Source: Candidatus Methanomethylophilaceae archaeon
GTDB taxonomy: Archaea; Thermoplasmatota; Thermoplasmata; Methanomassiliicoccales; Methanomethylophilaceae
Direction: 5' to 3'
DNA length: 35,152 bases
NCBI GenBank assembly: GCA_017461225.1
Contig: JAFTYV010000023.1
Location: 1 to 35,152, forward strand
In this document: one piece after another, positions 8,600 through 19,390 of the stretch
Layout of the letters: every line of letters begins with the position of its first letter
Numbering within the stretch: position 1 is the stretch's first letter
Notes under the pieces: generated by a model
The model's database searches: none
Seen by the model: only the letters and a program-made list of their open reading frames with translations
Told to the model about the DNA's origin: nothing
Position numbers and translations under genes: made by a program

Positions 8600-9220
8600 T
8601 CAACCACGCTCCGGCAGCATCGACTGGACCTTGGACACGATCTCGTCCAGCTTGTCCTGCGTGCAGGTGACACCCCTGACGACGCCGGTGACGATGTGGA
8701 CGATCTCGCCCTTGGTCTGGATCTTGTCCTCGGGGGGCATGACCACGGAGGTCCTCACACCGACCGCGGCGAAGTCCTCGAAGTCCACGGGGCACTGCGC
8801 CACCACGATGGCGGGTATGCCGACGTTCCTGAGGATCAGCCTGGCCTTGTACACTATGTGCATGCGGACGTTGCCCAGGTGGATCAGCGCCACCTTGTAC
8901 TGCCTGATCCTCTCGACCTCTATGGGGTCCAGTCCGAAGTAGGACCCCGTGGTCATGTCCGGGGCATCCGCCGGGACACCCGACCCCGCGTTGACGACGA
9001 GGACGCTGGTGTCGATACCCTCCTCGCGGAGGGCATACGTGATCTCGCACACCGGCTTCGTGATATGCCTCCTGCCGGGACCCATGGCGATCGCCACGAC
9101 GTCCCTGCCCGATTCGGAGATGGTCGCCCTCTGGGCGAGACCGCCTCCGACACCGAGGCCCATCGACTCCCTGCACTCCACGAAGCTGAGGTGCCTTCCC
9201 ATCTTCTGCTTCAACTTCAT
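8600..9220 (-). CDS. mcrC: McrC, methyl-CoM reductase operon protein C / activation factor
   Basis: This 206-residue McrC family protein has [20 protein letters not shown] at residues 48-67 with Cys58, [11 protein letters not shown] at 108-118, and [17 protein letters not shown] at 134-150 with Cys143. In many methanogens mcrC sits inside mcrBDCGA. Here the mcr operon lacks it and it lies between atwA and mmp3, matching its biochemical co-purification with the activation complex. Its ATG overlaps the atwA stop (ATGA). The motif around Cys58 and the following alpha/beta unit recur in Mmp7, suggesting a common origin and equivalent cofactor contacts. An alternative start at Met7 would remove six residues. 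Confidence 0.93.
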
Positions 9221-10824
9221 TCACCTTCCGGTACGGGCTCCATACCGAACTCCTCGAGGACCACCTCGGGGTCCCCTATTGAAACGACCTTGCCGCCCTT
9301 CATGAACGCGGCACGGTCGCAGCAGTTCATGACGAAGTCCATGTCGTGGCTGACCACGACGAACGTCTCGCCGAGGGTCTCCCTGGCGTTGACGACCGAC
9401 TTGGCGATGATCGTCTTCGTGATGGGGTCCATGGTACCGGTGGGCTCGTCGAGGATGATGATACGGGGCTCCTTTATCAGGACCTGTGCGAACGCGATCC
9501 TCTGGCACTCACCCACGGACAGGGAGTCGGGGTACGAGTACAGGATCTTCTCGATGTCCTGCTTGGGGAAACCTACGCTCAGGAGCACCTGGATGGCCTT
9601 GACCTTCGCGAGCTCCGCGGGCATCTTCATGCCGATGCAGGTGCTGAGGTTCTGCAGGACGGTGTCGAACGGGTACAGTGTGTACTCCTGGTGGAGGAAC
9701 CCGATGTAGGGTGTCGCCCTCCCCTTCCCGGAGAAACCGCTCTCGGACATGTCGACCCAGTCGTCACCGATCTTGATCTTGACGGAACCGCCGGTGGCGG
9801 GACTCATCCCGGCGATCATACGGGACGTTGTGGTCTTACCGGCTCCGGAGTACCCGACGAGCGCGAAGACCTCCCTCTCCTTGATGTCGAAGGACACACC
9901 GTCGACGGCCTTGACGACTCCCCTGACGACGGAGAAGTAGTGCTTCTTGGCATCGTCGAGGACGATGAGGGGTTCACCGAGGTTGCTGACCTGGCTCTTC
10001 TCGAAGTGGTAGTCCTTCATGAACTCGTCCGCGATGGCCTTGGGCTCGCCCTGCATGAGGACGTCCCCCGCATCCAGGAGGATGGCCTCGTCCGCCATCC
10101 TGGTGATGGCCTCGGGCCAGTGGGATGCGAACACCATGCATATGCCGTTGTCGCGGACGTAGTCGATGAGACCCTGGTGGACCGTCTCGGCGGTCGTGGG
10201 GTCGAGTGTACCGGTGGGCTCGTCCGCGAGGAAGAACAGGGGCTCCTTGGCGAGTTGCCTGGCCATGACGGTACGCTGCTTCTCCCCACCGGAGAGGTCC
10301 CTTGCGATGTGGGTCGTCCTGTGGGTCATGTTGACCAGCTTCAGCATGTCGATGGCACGGTTGATGCGTGCGTCGCCGTGGACATCGTCGGGTATGGCCT
10401 CCATGACGTTCTCGATGACGGACCTGTCCCCGAAGAGCGCGAAGGTCCTCTGGAGCATGATCGCCACGTGCGCCTTCACGGCCTGCCTGAGGGGGTCGCT
10501 CTCCTTGAGCGACCAGAAGTCCACGGACAGGGTCTCCGTCTCCCCTCCGCACTTGCCGCAGGGGACACCTTTGAACGGGAGGTCGAGGTCGCCGCACTTG
10601 CAGCAGCGGTTGACGTTGTAGATCACACGACCCTCGTCGGGTGCGTACTCCTCGCTGCCCCTGATCATGTGGATGAGCACACTCTTACCGGCGGCGCTCT
10701 TACCGATCAGTCCCAGAATCTTGCCAGTGCTCAGCTTGGCACTGACGTTCTTGAGGACGCATCTTCCATCGAACGACTTGGACACGTTCTCAATTACCAA
10801 TAAATCGACCGACTCTCTGACCAT
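9217..10824 (-). CDS. atwA: AtwA, component A2 ATP-binding protein of MCR activation
   Basis: A 535-residue soluble protein with two ABC ATPase domains and no membrane segments. Domain 1 has Walker A GKSAAGKS (41-48), signature LSGGE (178-182) and Walker B LADEPTG (199-205). Domain 2 has GYSGAGKT (324-331), LSVGE (435-439) and ILDEPTG (457-463). Inserted in domain 1 is a zinc-ribbon-like element with Cys74-x-x-Cys77 and Cys89-x-x-Cys92, typical of component A2. Component A2 delivers ATP for reduction of MCR's F430 nickel to Ni(I). It is the first gene of the operon. A TATA element 26 bases before the ATG at 10824, and no Shine-Dalgarno, indicate a leaderless transcript. The distant start and neighbouring mcrC/mmp3 make the assignment secure. 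Confidence 0.95.
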
Positions 10825-10957
10825 GTCCCGCGGACAATTTGCTACAATTTAAATTATCTGGGAACACGTCCAAGGTATAGTGCCGTTAATACTGAACACC
10901 GTTAAACACGGGCTCCGGGTGATAAAGGTTTTTATGATGGATATATGATACATCCAT
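10825..10957. promoter_or_regulatory. Divergent promoter region with candidate operators (atwA operon / DUF4443 regulator)
   Basis: The leftward TATA, AATTTAAATT (10846-10855), lies 26 bases before the atwA ATG. The rightward TATA, TTTTTATG (10929-10936), lies 26 bases before the ATG at 10958. Between them CCGTTAA occurs twice in the same orientation (10883-10889 and 10899-10905, period 16 bases). ATGGAT (10937-10942) and ATCCAT (10952-10957) form an inverted repeat sitting between the rightward TATA and its start codon. Both are plausible protein-binding sites for the adjacent winged-helix protein; binding itself is inference. Confidence 0.5.
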
Positions 10958-11917
10958 ATGCTTGTCCGTCCATCGAAACTCGGGGGACCGATACCCAAAT
11001 TCAACGACTACCACATGTGGAAGACATTCGAGTGCCTGGACGAGAAGACGTCCGTGGGCAGGAAGAAGCTGTCCACCATGCTGGGCATAGGCGAGGGAAG
11101 CACGAGGACGATCCTCTCCATCATACAGGAGCAGAACCTGATCTCCATCGGGAAGAGCGGGATCAGCCTCACCGCCAAGGGTGCCGAGTTCAAGAAGACC
11201 ATGCACATGGACGTCGCCGACGTGTCCATCAGCGACCTGACCATCGGCGACAAGGACTGCGCGGTCCGCGTCCCCCGCATGGCACGCAACGTCAGGTACG
11301 GGTGCGAGGAGAGGGATGCGGCGATAAAGTCCGGTGCGACCGGTGCGACGACCCTCATCTACTCCAACGGCAAGCTGATCTTCCCCGGATCCGACTACCC
11401 TGTCGAACCGGAGATAGAGTCGAAGGTCAGGTCGGTGTTCAACCTCAAGAACGACGACGTGGTCATCATCGGCACAGGGCCCACCCGCGAGATGGCGGAG
11501 ATCGGGGCGGTCATGGCCGGTCTGACCATCATGGGCGGGTTCCAGTTCAACAGGGAGCTGAAGGACATCCTGTCCTCCCGCAGCTCCGCCAACGAGATGA
11601 TCTCCCTCGCCTTCGCGATACACGACCTGGTCGGCGGACTCCCGGTGTGCGCCAAGAGCAGGGACAACCTCGGGATAAGGATCGAGAACGGGGCTGTGAT
11701 CGACAACGCGTACAACGGACCCGTCCTCGAAGAAGTAATAAATGCGGGTACGACCATCCGCAAGATCGCCACTGCCGGCCCGTACAAGGGGATAAGGGTC
11801 ATCGTCACCCCTATCGAACTGGACAACCGTATCATCGCCGCTATCGGTGTCGTGGACATACGTTCGATGGCAGGGGTCAACAACCTGATCAGACTCAGAA
11901 GTGATGAAAATGAGTGA
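10958..11917 (+). CDS. Winged-helix DUF4443 / DUF2111 predicted transcription regulator
   Basis: A 319-residue protein with an N-terminal winged-helix DNA-binding domain (about residues 20-80; TSVGRKKLSTMLGIGEGSTR at 31-50 is the helix-turn-helix, RTILSIIQEQNLISIGKSG the wing). The middle region (about 85-200) follows the DUF4443 pattern, and the C-terminal DUF2111 domain (about 215-305) has IRIENGAVIDNAYNGPVLEE and GPYKGIRVIV. DUF2111 is a small-ligand-sensor-like domain common in methanogens. The protein has no obvious metal motif. It starts leaderless (TATA 26 bases upstream), is divergent from the MCR-activation operon and overlaps the next gene by 8 bases. It may sense a metabolic signal and control atwA-mmp and/or itself. 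The target is inferred from position. Confidence 0.75.
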   Translation: MLVRPSKLGGPIPKFNDYHMWKTFECLDEKTSVGRKKLSTMLGIGEGSTRTILSIIQEQNLISIGKSGISLTAKGAEFKKTMHMDVADVSISDLTIGDKDCAVRVPRMARNVRYGCEERDAAIKSGATGATTLIYSNGKLIFPGSDYPVEPEIESKVRSVFNLKNDDVVIIGTGPTREMAEIGAVMAGLTIMGGFQFNRELKDILSSRSSANEMISLAFAIHDLVGGLPVCAKSRDNLGIRIENGAVIDNAYNGPVLEEVINAGTTIRKIATAGPYKGIRVIVTPIELDNRIIAAIGVVDIRSMAGVNNLIRLRSDENE

Positions 11918-12233
11918 GTGTAAAGTATGTGTCGATGCCGGCGTCTGCAAGATGAAGACCATCATCACCGCCAAGGAGAACGACATGGGCCTCGTCGAGC
12001 TCGACATCAAGAGCGACTGTCCCAACGTGCTCAGGATGTCCTGGAAGCTCGAGCCCCTCAGCCCCTACGCCGAGGTCGAGGCGGAGTTCCACAAGTCCGA
12101 GATCTACAAACTGGCCAACGATGCCATCCCCCACACCGCATGCCCCGTCCCCTCGGGAATCGTCAAGGCACTCGAGGTCGCCGGTGGACTCGGGCTCAAG
12201 CGCGACTGCTCCATCACCTTCATCGATGAGTGA
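11910..12233 (+). CDS. Small Cys-containing conserved archaeal protein
   Basis: This 107-residue protein is probably of the archaeal DUF6951-type family (recalled, not verified), with the conserved tail HTACPVPSGIVKALEVAGGL at 75-94. Cysteines at 4, 7, 13, 37, 78 and 100, with CKVC and VDAGVC at the N-terminus, suggest metal binding or redox sensing. The ATG at 11910 is chosen because GTGAT, complementary to the 16S tail, lies 4 bases before it; in-frame ATG 11904 and GTG 11901 are alternatives. It overlaps the end of the regulator gene by 8 bases, so the two are co-translated and probably act together. No function is known. Confidence 0.75.
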   Translation: MSECKVCVDAGVCKMKTIITAKENDMGLVELDIKSDCPNVLRMSWKLEPLSPYAEVEAEFHKSEIYKLANDAIPHTACPVPSGIVKALEVAGGLGLKRDCSITFIDE

Positions 12234-14771: not shown

Positions 14772-15056
14772 TTATCCGCCTCCGGAGGGCATGAACTCAG
14801 AGATGTCGACCTCTTCGGACTCCTTCCTGATATCCTCGATGGATCTCATGCCTCCTTCGTACGTCGAACGCTCCTTGAAGGAGACCTCGATGTACTCGGA
14901 CGCATCCGCCGGGACGAGGTACGTGGAATCGTAGTAGAGTCCGGTGAAGTCAAGTTTGACCCAGACGACACCGTTCTCCTCCTTGATGTCCTGCACCTTG
15001 CCAACCGTCGATGTGGGCAAGTACTTCAAGATGTCTCCGTTTTTCAAGGTGATCAT
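14772..15056 (-). CDS. DUF2098 family small protein, last gene of the mcr operon
   Basis: This 94-residue protein has the DUF2098 signature: [20 protein letters not shown] at 7-26, [17 protein letters not shown] around 33-49 and YIEVSFKER near 55-63. That is a small beta-barrel-like fold restricted to archaea. The C-terminus is acidic and ends in PSGGG. Its ATG overlaps the mcrA stop (ATGA) and the ribosome-binding AAAGGA lies in the mcrA end, so it is translationally coupled to McrA. No function is known. Its place suggests an assembly or stability factor for MCR, which is inference. Confidence 0.85.
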
Positions 15057-16711
15057 CCTTTGATGACAGCGCTTCTCTCACCGGCGGGCACGAACTCCCT
15101 GAGGGCTCCGCGTCCGATCTCCTTGGTGATGTTTGCGAAGTCGAAGACCAGTGCAGGGTCAGCGAACGAAACACGCACGAAGGGGTTGCAGGTGAATGCG
15201 TCACCGCGGGCAACGTGAGCTGCCTTGGGGATACCGGTGTATCCGGACTGGTGACCGACGTTCATTGCGTAGTTGGGGTAGTTGGGTCCACGGACCTCTG
15301 CGGGGAGACCCTCATCGGACCTGTATGCGTAGGAGTTGGCGGAACCGCACTGGTCCTGGAGGTCGAATCCGTAGAATCCGAGCCTTCCGGTCCTCTCCTT
15401 GTGCTGGAGCATGGAGAGGTACCAGCAGTTCAGACCGACATCCGCGACTCCGGTTGCCATTGCACCAGCGATTCCGGTGGATGCTGCTGCGACGGTTGCC
15501 CTCTGGGATCCACCGAAGTGGGTCTCCATGACAGCGGGGTACCTCTCGTACATCTCGAGAGCGTATGCGTTGATGTCGTCACCGAGTTTCATGATCTCGT
15601 CGGTGTTGGAGGGGTCCAGTTTGCAGAATCCTCCGTACCTGTCCTTGATCTGGTCGATTGCGTAGTAGACGTAGTCCTCGAGGATGTTGTCGGTGTATGC
15701 TGCGGTAGCGTACTGGGTGAATCCGACTCCTCCGGACATGTATCCACCGAGGTAGACCTGGTCGTAGATGGCTGCTCCGAGGGCGACTGCCTCGAGTGCT
15801 GCACGTCCGGGGTCGTCAGGGTAGACACGGTCGGACTGGGTGATGTCAGCCATGTATCCGAAGGGGATTCCTCCGGGCTCGTTGGGTCCCCTTGCACGCC
15901 TTGCGGGCATCATGGTTCCCATGTTGAGGGACTGGTGCTTCGCGGAGTATGCGAAGTCTGCGATGGCTGCCTCTCCTGCTGCGAGCTTGTAGGAGGAGAT
16001 GAATGCCATGGAGATCTGCATTGCTGCGTGCCTGGAGACGGTTGCTCCATCCATGAGCCTTCCAACGATGGTGGGGACACGGACGGACTGCATGAGGGTC
16101 TTTCCGACGGCTGCCTTCAGCTGCTCTGCCTGCTCTGCAGGGAAGAGCTTGTTGATGTCGAGGACGTACCTGGAGTCGATCTCGTCGATGAGCTCGTCGT
16201 CTCCGGAGAAGACCTTGACGTAGGAATCCCAAGCGAGTGCGGGGTTGACCTCTGCCATGTGCTCCTGAACGACTGCTCCACCGGGAACGGTGTGGTTGAC
16301 GGTCTCGAGGTATGCGTTGATGGTCTCGGGGGTGACCTCCTTACCGAGCCTTCTCTCGATGGTCTGGTGAGGGGAGTCGAGTCCGACGAGGATGGTCCTC
16401 CTGATGTCGTCCCATGCCTGCTGGATTGCGCAGTTGTTCACGCAGTGCAGGTCGTCTGCCTCTGCGTAGATGTCGGTGTGGGACAGCTGGTAGGGCATCC
16501 AGGACCTCTGTCCGAGAGGAACTCCGATGTCCTCGTTGAGCATGGGGACTCCACGCTTCTTTGCGATCTCGTCTGCGGTCTTCTGGAACTCGACCTTGGA
16601 CTTGGACTGCTTCCATCCACCGTAGCAGTAGTACTTGGTGGAGATGTCGGTAGGCTCTTCCTTGAATTTCTTCTTGCATGCGTCCATGAACAGCTTCTCT
16701 TTTCCTGCCAT
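15053..16711 (-). CDS. mcrA: Methyl-coenzyme M reductase subunit alpha
   Basis: This 552-residue alpha subunit of the enzyme releases methane from methyl-CoM and coenzyme B. Expected landmarks by similarity are axial F430 ligand Gln149 ([10 protein letters not shown]), the methyl-His site His259 in AKHQ, the methyl-Arg site in [11 protein letters not shown] (271-281), Tyr334 in [12 protein letters not shown], the methyl-Gln site Gln403 in FGGSQRATV, thioglycine site Gly448 and Cys455 in [15 protein letters not shown] 16711 is preferred because GGGAG lies about 10 bases upstream; a GTG at 16720 overlapping the mcrG stop would add MIT. Alanine codons are mainly GCA/GCT, unlike most genes here, marking very high expression. 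It is followed by the overlapping DUF2098 gene. Confidence 0.99.
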
Positions 16712-16716
16712 GGTAA

Positions 16717-17490
16717 TCACTCTCCCTTAACCTTCCAGGGCTGGTATCCACCAAGGGTCCTCAGTTTGTGGATCCTGAGTCCGTACATGGTGACCTCTTT
16801 GTCGTCTCTCATGTCAACACCGTCTGCTCTGAAGATGGTGGTCCTCTTCCTGAGGTCAGAAAGGGGGCTGGGCTTTCCAACGGAGATCTTCCTGTCGAGG
16901 GGGATAGCGACCTGGTCCTTGACGTAGACGACCTCTTTCTTCTCGTCGTCCCAGACGTACCTCTGCCATCCGTCGAACATGAGTCCGTTCTCATCGAGAC
17001 GGCAGGAGTGTCCGTGAACGGTTGCTCCCCTGATTCCGGTGAGTGCGGGGTCGAAGGTCTCGTTGTCGATCATCTCTTTTGCCATGACCTCGAGGTCTCT
17101 CTCACGGACCTCGATGATCTGCCTTCCGGAAAGGGTTCCGGTGTCGACTCCTCTGTACCTGGAGAGGTACATCCATGCCCTCTGGTAGGGGGAGATGGGT
17201 GCGAAGTAGACGGAGTCAGCGAACTGGATGTACCTGACACGGTCTCCGTGTTTCGCTCCCTCGATGGGAACGACGAGCTTCCTGATGGGGCACTCGGGCT
17301 CCTTGCCCTCCTCGATCGGGGGGTGGATGGACTTGTAGTCCTCTCCGGGGTTCCTGTGTCCCATGATCCTGACAACGTCGTCCATGGAGACATCGCGGAG
17401 CTGCTTCAGTTTGACTTTGGGGTCCAGGTATCTGCGCCTGTTTTTCGCAGGGACGGAGTTACCGGGATAGAACTGTCTCTTGTATGCCAT
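16717..17490 (-). CDS. mcrG: Methyl-coenzyme M reductase subunit gamma
   Basis: This 257-residue gamma subunit of MCR has the usual length. Landmarks are the N-terminal [20 protein letters not shown], the coenzyme M-contacting [13 protein letters not shown] (121-133) and [11 protein letters not shown] (155-165). ATG 17490 is chosen over the upstream ATG-like start at 17511 because GGAG lies 8 bases before it and because family members begin at this point. It starts 1 base after the mcrD stop and ends 5 bases before the mcrA ATG, inside the mcrBDGA operon. Codon choice shows the same high-expression bias as mcrA. Confidence 0.98.
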
Positions 17491-17491
17491 A

Positions 17492-17926
17492 TTATGCACT
17501 CCTATAATCATGTAGTGTAGGTTTGTATTTCAAGTACCTTCCAACCTGGAGGGTGTAACCGTGCTCGATGGTCGCATCGCACGCGGCCTTGATCTCCTCC
17601 AACCTAGCATCGAGTTCCTCCTCCGACTCAACATCCATCTCGATGTAGAACCCTCCGACGAGGTAACGGAGTTCGACCTCCTGGTTGCCCACGTGGATGA
17701 TCTTACGCTCGGTGTGGTTGTTGGCGTGTCCCTTGCCGGGTCCGTTGTTGATGGTCTTGGGAAGGCTCTCACCAGTCATGTTGATCTGCCTGATGTTGGG
17801 AATCACATCCAGAGCGTTCAGGACCCTCTCGGTGGAATCGGCACTGAGGAGGCGGTTCGTGAGAATCTGCACCTCGGGGAGGGGTTTCTCGGCGTATTCG
17901 GCTGTAGGTTTGATGGGACTTGACAT
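17492..17926 (-). CDS. mcrD: Methyl-coenzyme M reductase operon protein D
   Basis: This 144-residue McrD homologue is recognisable by VQILTNRLLSADSTERVLNA (19-38), LPKTINNGPGKGHANNHTER (55-74) and the HVGNQEVELRYLVGGFYIE strand pair. McrD is not part of the purified hexamer; it associates with apo-MCR and is thought to help assembly or F430 insertion. It starts 9 bases after the mcrB stop with GTGAGG as ribosome-binding site, and ends 1 base before mcrG. The order B-D-G-A without C is notable because mcrC lies with atwA elsewhere in the window. Confidence 0.95.
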   Translation of the reverse strand: MSSPIKPTAEYAEKPLPEVQILTNRLLSADSTERVLNALDVIPNIRQINMTGESLPKTINNGPGKGHANNHTERKIIHVGNQEVELRYLVGGFYIEMDVESEEELDARLEEIKAACDATIEHGYTLQVGRYLKYKPTLHDYRSA

Positions 17927-17935
17927 AACAAGGCC

Positions 17936-19270
17936 TCACAGTTTCTTTTTCACCTTCTTTGCCTCAGCAGCGACGTACTGCATGGGCTTCTGGAACTCTT
18001 CCATGTCTCCGAAGACCTCCCTGAAGAGACCGGATGTGGCCTCTGCGGAGAAGGTCTGTGTTCCTCCGTCCAGACAGTTTCCTGCGGTGACGGCGGGGAT
18101 CAGGACTCCCTTTGCGTGCCTGGTAACGACGTGGTTTCCGTGGAACAGACCGGGTCCGCCTCCTCCGTAAATGGAGTGAGAGAAGAAGGACATACCGACT
18201 CCGACTCCCTCAGACCTTCCGTAGTCTGCTCCGGGGAGACCGGACTCGTGCTCGAGCAGGTCGTTGTAGTACAGGACGGTTCCGGGGATACCCTGTGCGG
18301 CCCTTGCGGCTCCGACGTTGACCATGACTGCTGCGACCATTCCGGTTGCTGCGTATGCGTTCCACTTGGGGAGATCATCGGTGGTGTAGACCTTGTATCC
18401 AGAGGGCAGGGTCTCCTTCACGCGGATGACTCCATCGTCGATTGCCCTCTCCATGAGGGATGCGATAACGGTACCGACGGTTCCGGTCTTTCCGTTCTTC
18501 TTGACGAGAGTGTAGAGCATGTTGTTGGCGTTGAGTCCCTCGTACGCGAAGGAGAGGAGTGATCCACGCTCGAAGTTTCCGATTGCATCTCCCATCTCGT
18601 AGGATCCGCACTGCTCGAAGATAGAGGAGAGTGCGACTCCCTGCATGGCGTTCCTGTTGACGAGTGCGACAACGTGGTTGGCCATGATGTTCCTGAGTGC
18701 GAATCCAGCACCCTCGTTGTTCTGGGGAACCTCGAGGATGGACTTGACGTTTGCACCCTGGAATGTGACGGTCTGGGGGTACCTTCCCCAAACTGCAGCT
18801 TTAACCATGTTAGCCTTGTACATGGGGATGTCAAAGGTGTCGATGATTGCCTCGGTGGCTGCTGCTGCGACGGATGTGAATCCAGTGGTGTACTCGATTC
18901 CAGCGTTCATTCTCTCCTCAGGCACAACGACAACGACGTTCTTTCCGTCGGACTTGACCTGGGAGATGGTTCCATCGCCGTCGTATACCTGGACTTTCTC
19001 TTTGACAAGCTCTGCGATCTTGTCGGCGTTCTTGACGAGAGGGATGTCGATCTCCTTTCCTTTGATGATGACACCGCCGCCGGTCATGGAACCGGACTTG
19101 AGTGCTTTCTCAATTCCGGCAAGGTTGATGGCGCAGGTCCTCTTTGTCAGAGAAACGATCTTCTTGATCGCATTGTTGCGCAACGGACTGATGGCCTCCA
19201 ACGGAATGTCTTTCGCGATGCGTTTTCCGTTGTCGTCATACAAGTCGATTACGTCCTCGTATTTTGGCAT
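17936..19270 (-). CDS. mcrB: Methyl-coenzyme M reductase subunit beta
   Basis: This 444-residue beta subunit of MCR is the first gene of mcrBDGA. It starts [20 protein letters not shown], and the active-site region is [20 protein letters not shown] (362-381), with Tyr368 and His380 at the positions that contact F430 and coenzyme B in known MCRs. The strong Shine-Dalgarno AGGAGGT lies 5-6 bases before the ATG, unlike most first genes here, which are leaderless. Codon bias towards GCA/GCT for Ala matches mcrA and the methyltransferase gene. Length and order are normal for the family. Confidence 0.98.
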
Positions 19271-19390
19271 TTTATACCTCCTTTCTCGATAAATGTCGTG
19301 GAAGCCTCAAAATCCCCAAGAAACCTCAAGAATTATTCCGAATCCACATTACCCCTTGCAAGCTACGGTATCGGATTTGACAATATAAAA
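19271..19390 (-). promoter_or_regulatory. mcr operon promoter and about 90-base leader
   Basis: On the minus strand TTTTATATTG (19381-19390) is the only good TATA element upstream of mcrB, predicting a transcript start near 19360 and a leader of about 90 bases ending in AGGAGGT. Most other first genes here have no leader, so the mcr mRNA is built for ribosome loading through Shine-Dalgarno pairing and possibly leader-based control. Bases 19391-19510 hold no gene I can recognise. Confidence 0.6.

Follow-up and report, generated by a model that had tools for sequence, protein, structure and literature searches.

The gene that stands back-to-back with atwA in Methanomassiliicoccales probably encodes a one-component regulator, which would bind the palindrome GGAT-N9-ATCC, repress its own gene and control, most likely by activation, the mcr operon and methyltransferase operons, with its DUF2111 domain acting as the sensor. 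It is thus a candidate for a missing regulator of methane production in these organisms, methanogens of gut and rumen that grow on methylated compounds. Little work has been done on how transcription of the genes for methyl-coenzyme M reductase (MCR) is controlled, and mcr expression in M. acetivorans was reported to be constitutive (PMC11267899). A full-text literature search of incomplete coverage, within which novelty is judged here, returned no mention of DUF2111 or DUF4443, the two domains that follow the winged helix of the protein. With the protein, its putative operator and the target promoters all specified, the idea could be tested with one gel shift, and the operator is usable for finding methyltransferase operons across Methanomassiliicoccales.

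The window, by which we mean the whole stretch of 35,152 nucleotides that was analysed, contains the features listed below. The six families of the order are denoted f1 (the family of the window) to f6.

9217-10824, minus strand: atwA (methyl-CoM reductase component A2), the divergent partner of the regulator (TIGR03269, 714.8 bits)
10846-10854, minus strand: predicted TATA-like box of atwA, AT-rich ATTTAAATT, from the sequence and intergenic comparison
10883-10889, no strand assigned: first CCGTTAA, of which a single GTTAA is conserved upstream of the TATA-like box of atwA
10899-10905, no strand assigned: second CCGTTAA, not conserved and probably incidental
10929-10936, plus strand: TATA-like box of the regulator, TTTTTATG, read from the sequence, directly upstream of the palindrome
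10937-10957, plus strand: putative operator palindrome ATGGAT-N9-ATCCAT, ending directly before the ATG at 10958
10958-11917, plus strand: regulator open reading frame, 319 aa, with winged helix (residues ~15-85), DUF4443 (96-191) and DUF2111 (221-301)
11901-12233, plus strand: DUF6951 gene (Pfam), overlapping the 3' end of the regulator gene, of which it is a conserved neighbour
17936-19270, minus strand: mcrB (TIGR03257), first gene of mcrBDGA; palindrome at its promoter in f2-f6 and not in the genome of the window

The domain make-up of the regulator is defined by Pfam matches well above the curated cutoffs for DUF4443 (PF14544, residues 96-191, 105.5 bits against a cutoff of 27) and DUF2111 (PF09884, residues 221-301, 109.2 bits against a cutoff of 27), while the winged helix matches two families, CggR_N (36.3 bits, cutoff 30) and PH0730-like_N. 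Beyond the winged helix, DUF4443 and DUF2111 were the only Pfam domains detected and no C-terminal sugar-binding effector domain was found; IclR helix-turn-helix (HTH) and effector profiles were likewise absent from searches of Pfam and NCBIfam. The full-length structural model (mean pLDDT 81.5, pTM 0.58) matches PH0730 and the CggR DNA-binding domain in Foldseek, and the separate model of DUF2111 (pLDDT 86.0) is similar to sensor domains of the Cache, PAS and GAF types (E 3e-4, TM ~0.64), making a signal sensor with a Cache/PAS/GAF-like fold its likely identity. All 24 aligned sequences share the recognition-helix segment GEGSxRT, as expected if the operator has not changed. The earlier note, made from the letters of the window alone, had described a winged-helix protein with a putative sensor domain back-to-back with atwA, and this description is borne out by the Pfam matches, the intergenic gap and the DUF2111 model.

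The best match of the regulator in both sequence (E 5.1e-10) and fold (Foldseek E 1.7e-10) is PH0730 from Pyrococcus horikoshii (PDB 2p8t), a member of the DUF4443 family, which shares with it a winged helix followed by a DUF4443-like domain. PH0730, however, has only 200 residues, lacks DUF2111 and was deposited as a hypothetical protein; the genome of the window has its own short PH0730-like version (L002), which is not a likely binder of the palindrome. The DNA-binding domain also resembles that of CggR/SorC proteins (29% identity, rmsd 1.7 A over 65 columns; Foldseek, 7oyk), but the CggR sugar-phosphate effector domain is missing, with DUF4443 and DUF2111 in its place. One-component regulators of the IclR type have a similar layout, in which a GAF/PAS-like sensor comes after a winged helix, and give weak whole-chain matches, with TM-scores of ~0.2 that indicate no homology beyond this general layout. 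Regulators of methyltransferase or methanogenesis operons are represented by MsrA, MsrB, MsrD, MsrE, MreA and HdrR in Methanosarcina and FilR1 in Methanosaeta, which are likened to the present protein by function alone. A recent example of an activator is HdrR, which binds a region with a palindromic sequence upstream of hdrBCA (PMC11218639), and mcr promoters are unaffected by FilR1 (PMC3991700).

The start codons of the regulator and atwA are separated by a shared gap of 133 bp, and atwA is followed by an mcrC-like gene, mmp3, mmp6, mmp5 and mmp15. DUF2111 is present in 130 of 147 Methanomassiliicoccales genomes, and in 105 of these 130 the regulator and atwA are immediately divergent, so that the arrangement, whose conservation the earlier note had proposed to check, is indeed conserved. 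In the remaining genomes the two genes are divergent within 6 kb (11 genomes) or at ~12.7 kb (2 genomes), or are on different contigs (12 genomes), and a non-divergent orientation was not seen. That mcr, atwA and marker genes cluster in Methanomassiliicoccales was noted earlier, in a report whose passages on the cluster name no regulator (PMC4153887). Across a sample of 391 genomes from the phylum, DUF2111 was found in 53 genomes of Methanomassiliicoccales and in one other (G350), and a scan of genome contigs for regulator homologues returned Methanomassiliicoccales only. Among 14 control genomes DUF2111 was restricted to M. jannaschii and M. acetivorans, and since it occurs in these methanogens as well, it could be a methanogen-wide sensing module. 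In G350, which lies outside the order, DUF2111 is a stand-alone open reading frame (L310) whose neighbours encode a NifB-like protein and methanogenesis markers 2, 4 and 11; the bin has no mcrB, and the contig is perhaps a contaminant from a methanogen.

The palindrome is a conserved element of the regulator's own promoter. GGAT-N9-ATCC occurs exactly, no more than 75 bp from the start, at 78 of 107 distinct regulator loci and within one mismatch at 83 of them, compared with exact occurrence in 0.05% of shuffles and 0/106 in an upstream control window. The palindrome is found in this promoter in all six families, taking the longer form GGATGGAT-N5-ATCCATCC in the distant ones; GGATGGNNNATCCATCC is present exactly in 41 of 46 f2-f6 genomes, and none of the 147 genomes contains its reversed control. 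The TGGAT-N9-ATCCA core occurs seven times in the 1.52 Mb genome of the window, and the reversed control pattern does not occur there. The own-promoter palindrome is absent from several f1 regulators that are 50-60% identical to that of the window. It is likewise absent at the extra DUF2111 regulator copies that lie away from atwA in five genomes (L221-L225, in G130, G133, G132, G127 and G008). An AT-rich TATA-like stretch directly precedes the palindrome in the 78 aligned own promoters, and the site therefore spans the region from TATA to start, which is the position of a repressor. Autoregulation through the inverted repeat, as the earlier note had suggested, is supported by this placement at the regulator start.

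Further sites of the predicted regulon were located by pattern searches only. A search of 14 genomes, most of them from families other than that of the window, located the long palindrome, with up to one mismatch, at only 20 places, including 10 at the regulator and 6 upstream of mcrB; its reversed control had no match there. The palindrome is present at the mcrB promoter in f2 (1/1), f3 (4/4), f4 (1/1), f6 (9/9) and most of f5, with the f5 exceptions being degenerate in G020 and G023 and reduced to a half-site in G016. In f1 it is kept at mcrB in few genera, and it is absent from the mcrB promoter of the window, where mcrBDGA occupies positions 15053-19270. A further 20 exact sites in f2-f6 include 14 upstream of corrinoid methyltransferase protein genes, with more such sites in f5, and the palindrome also lies upstream of MtaA-type methyltransferase genes (L370, L371) and, in one genome, of cfbA (nickel chelatase of F430 synthesis). 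The spacing is nearly fixed: 9-10 bp separate the end of the palindrome from the TATA-like box downstream of it at all 17 mcr promoters examined and at 6 of the 7 corrinoid promoters.

In the genus of the window, mtaC-, mtbC- and mtaA-type genes have a shorter palindrome upstream, as does a CobW-like GTPase gene adjoining methyltransferase genes; the genome of the window has this CobW-like site close to the end of a contig. The mcr site is mostly lost in this genus, and the sites found are mainly at the regulator and methyltransferase genes. Single sites here are less certain because TGGAT-N9-ATCCA also matches coding sequence; such sites lie, for example, upstream of the gene for a class II ribonucleotide reductase (L107) and of a small gene of the L112 type. 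In three f6 genomes (L387, L389 and L390), the palindrome lies between the gene for a PanD-like aspartate decarboxylase and its divergent neighbour, which in L387 encodes a periplasmic binding protein.

From sequence, we infer that the N-terminal winged helix binds GGAT-N9-ATCC and its extended form, presumably as a dimer. When bound to its own site between TATA and start, the regulator would repress its own gene, and when bound 9-10 bp upstream of TATA it would control, most likely activate, mcrBDGA and the corrinoid methyltransferase operons, and would so co-regulate the entry into methylotrophic methanogenesis and its last step. DUF2111 is the likely signal sensor. More tentatively, its signal may be a molecule of methanogenesis (e.g. 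a coenzyme, a corrinoid or the F430 state), to which the regulator would match the amounts of MCR and methyltransferases. The same protein and sites could instead serve repression at all promoters, with binding upstream of TATA hindering that of TFB, which would fit both the end of the site 9-10 bp from TATA, near the BRE, and the blocking position of the regulator's own site. However, a mere blocker need not hold a fixed spacing, and keeping strictly to one upstream distance is a trait more typical of archaeal activators, so that the position upstream of TATA suggests activation and general repression is rather unlikely. A hairpin of RNA or DNA in the regulator mRNA leader, a reading invited by the inverted repeat adjoining the start codon, is highly improbable, since at mcrB and the corrinoid genes the repeat is upstream of TATA and so not transcribed, by which this reading is largely refuted.

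The earlier note had proposed that the regulator controls the divergent atwA-mmp operon, and had pointed out a tandem of CCGTTAA in the shared gap. Within the window, the plus strand has this motif only at 10883 and 10899, and the pair with a period of 16 is found in one of 82 intergenic regions upstream of atwA, that of the window's genome. The tandem was therefore rejected as an operator, leaving the inverted repeat as the one of the two proposed repeats that is conserved. A single GTTAA is found in 44 of the 82 regions, compared with 11.6 in shuffles, and usually lies 40-80 bp from the start of atwA. Control mainly of atwA-mmp, through the tandem or the palindrome, would agree with this enrichment and with the order-wide conservation of the divergent pairing, but it is unlikely, given that the tandem is confined to one genome and that the palindrome is some 80-110 bp away from the TATA-like box of atwA, compared with 9-10 bp at mcrB and methyltransferase genes. 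The conserved targets are instead the regulator itself, mcrB and the corrinoid methyltransferase genes. A second element, of approximately the form TTAAy-N-GTTAA with TCTGG nearby, was also observed: at mcrB and corrinoid promoters (e.g. L163, L346) it immediately precedes the palindrome, and an element of the same type lies upstream of the atwA TATA-like box (10883-10889 in the window); it is possibly the site of another factor.

Sequence alone cannot assign the binder, and the palindrome might belong to another transcription factor, for which the DUF4443-DUF2111 gene would be merely one target. Natural losses of the regulator bear on this question. In G019 and G021, both 99% complete, atwA is present, while the regulator gene has gone from beside it and DUF2111 was not found anywhere in either genome; in G019 the DUF6951 gene is kept beside atwA despite this loss (L213). 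Neither genome has a palindrome at mcrB, or anywhere in the genome within one mismatch, compared with 3-8 in nine relatives. Apparent mcrB sites in the two genomes (GGGGATTCGATTTTCATCC) were discarded, because they fall after TATA, in the leader, and recur in relatives as leader sequence. Because G019 and G021 belong to one genus, they probably represent a single loss event. Of the alternative binders, the nearest is the short HTH-DUF4443 paralogue; it is disfavoured, since both genomes keep it and yet have no palindrome. The converse case is G014, in which sites are present and DUF2111 was not found; given its fragmented assembly of 150 contigs, this absence is probably, though not certainly, an assembly gap. 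A different factor as the owner of the palindrome is thus improbable, considering that every copy has gone where the regulator gene has gone, and that the palindrome lies in the regulator's own promoter in six families, as autoregulation predicts.

An additional feature of mcrB is a long conserved 5' leader (19270-19390 on the minus strand of the window; leaders in L163-L212), which starts near GCAAGGGG, ~25 bp past TATA, and has an inverted repeat ahead of the Shine-Dalgarno sequence. This leader could be a structured regulatory RNA.
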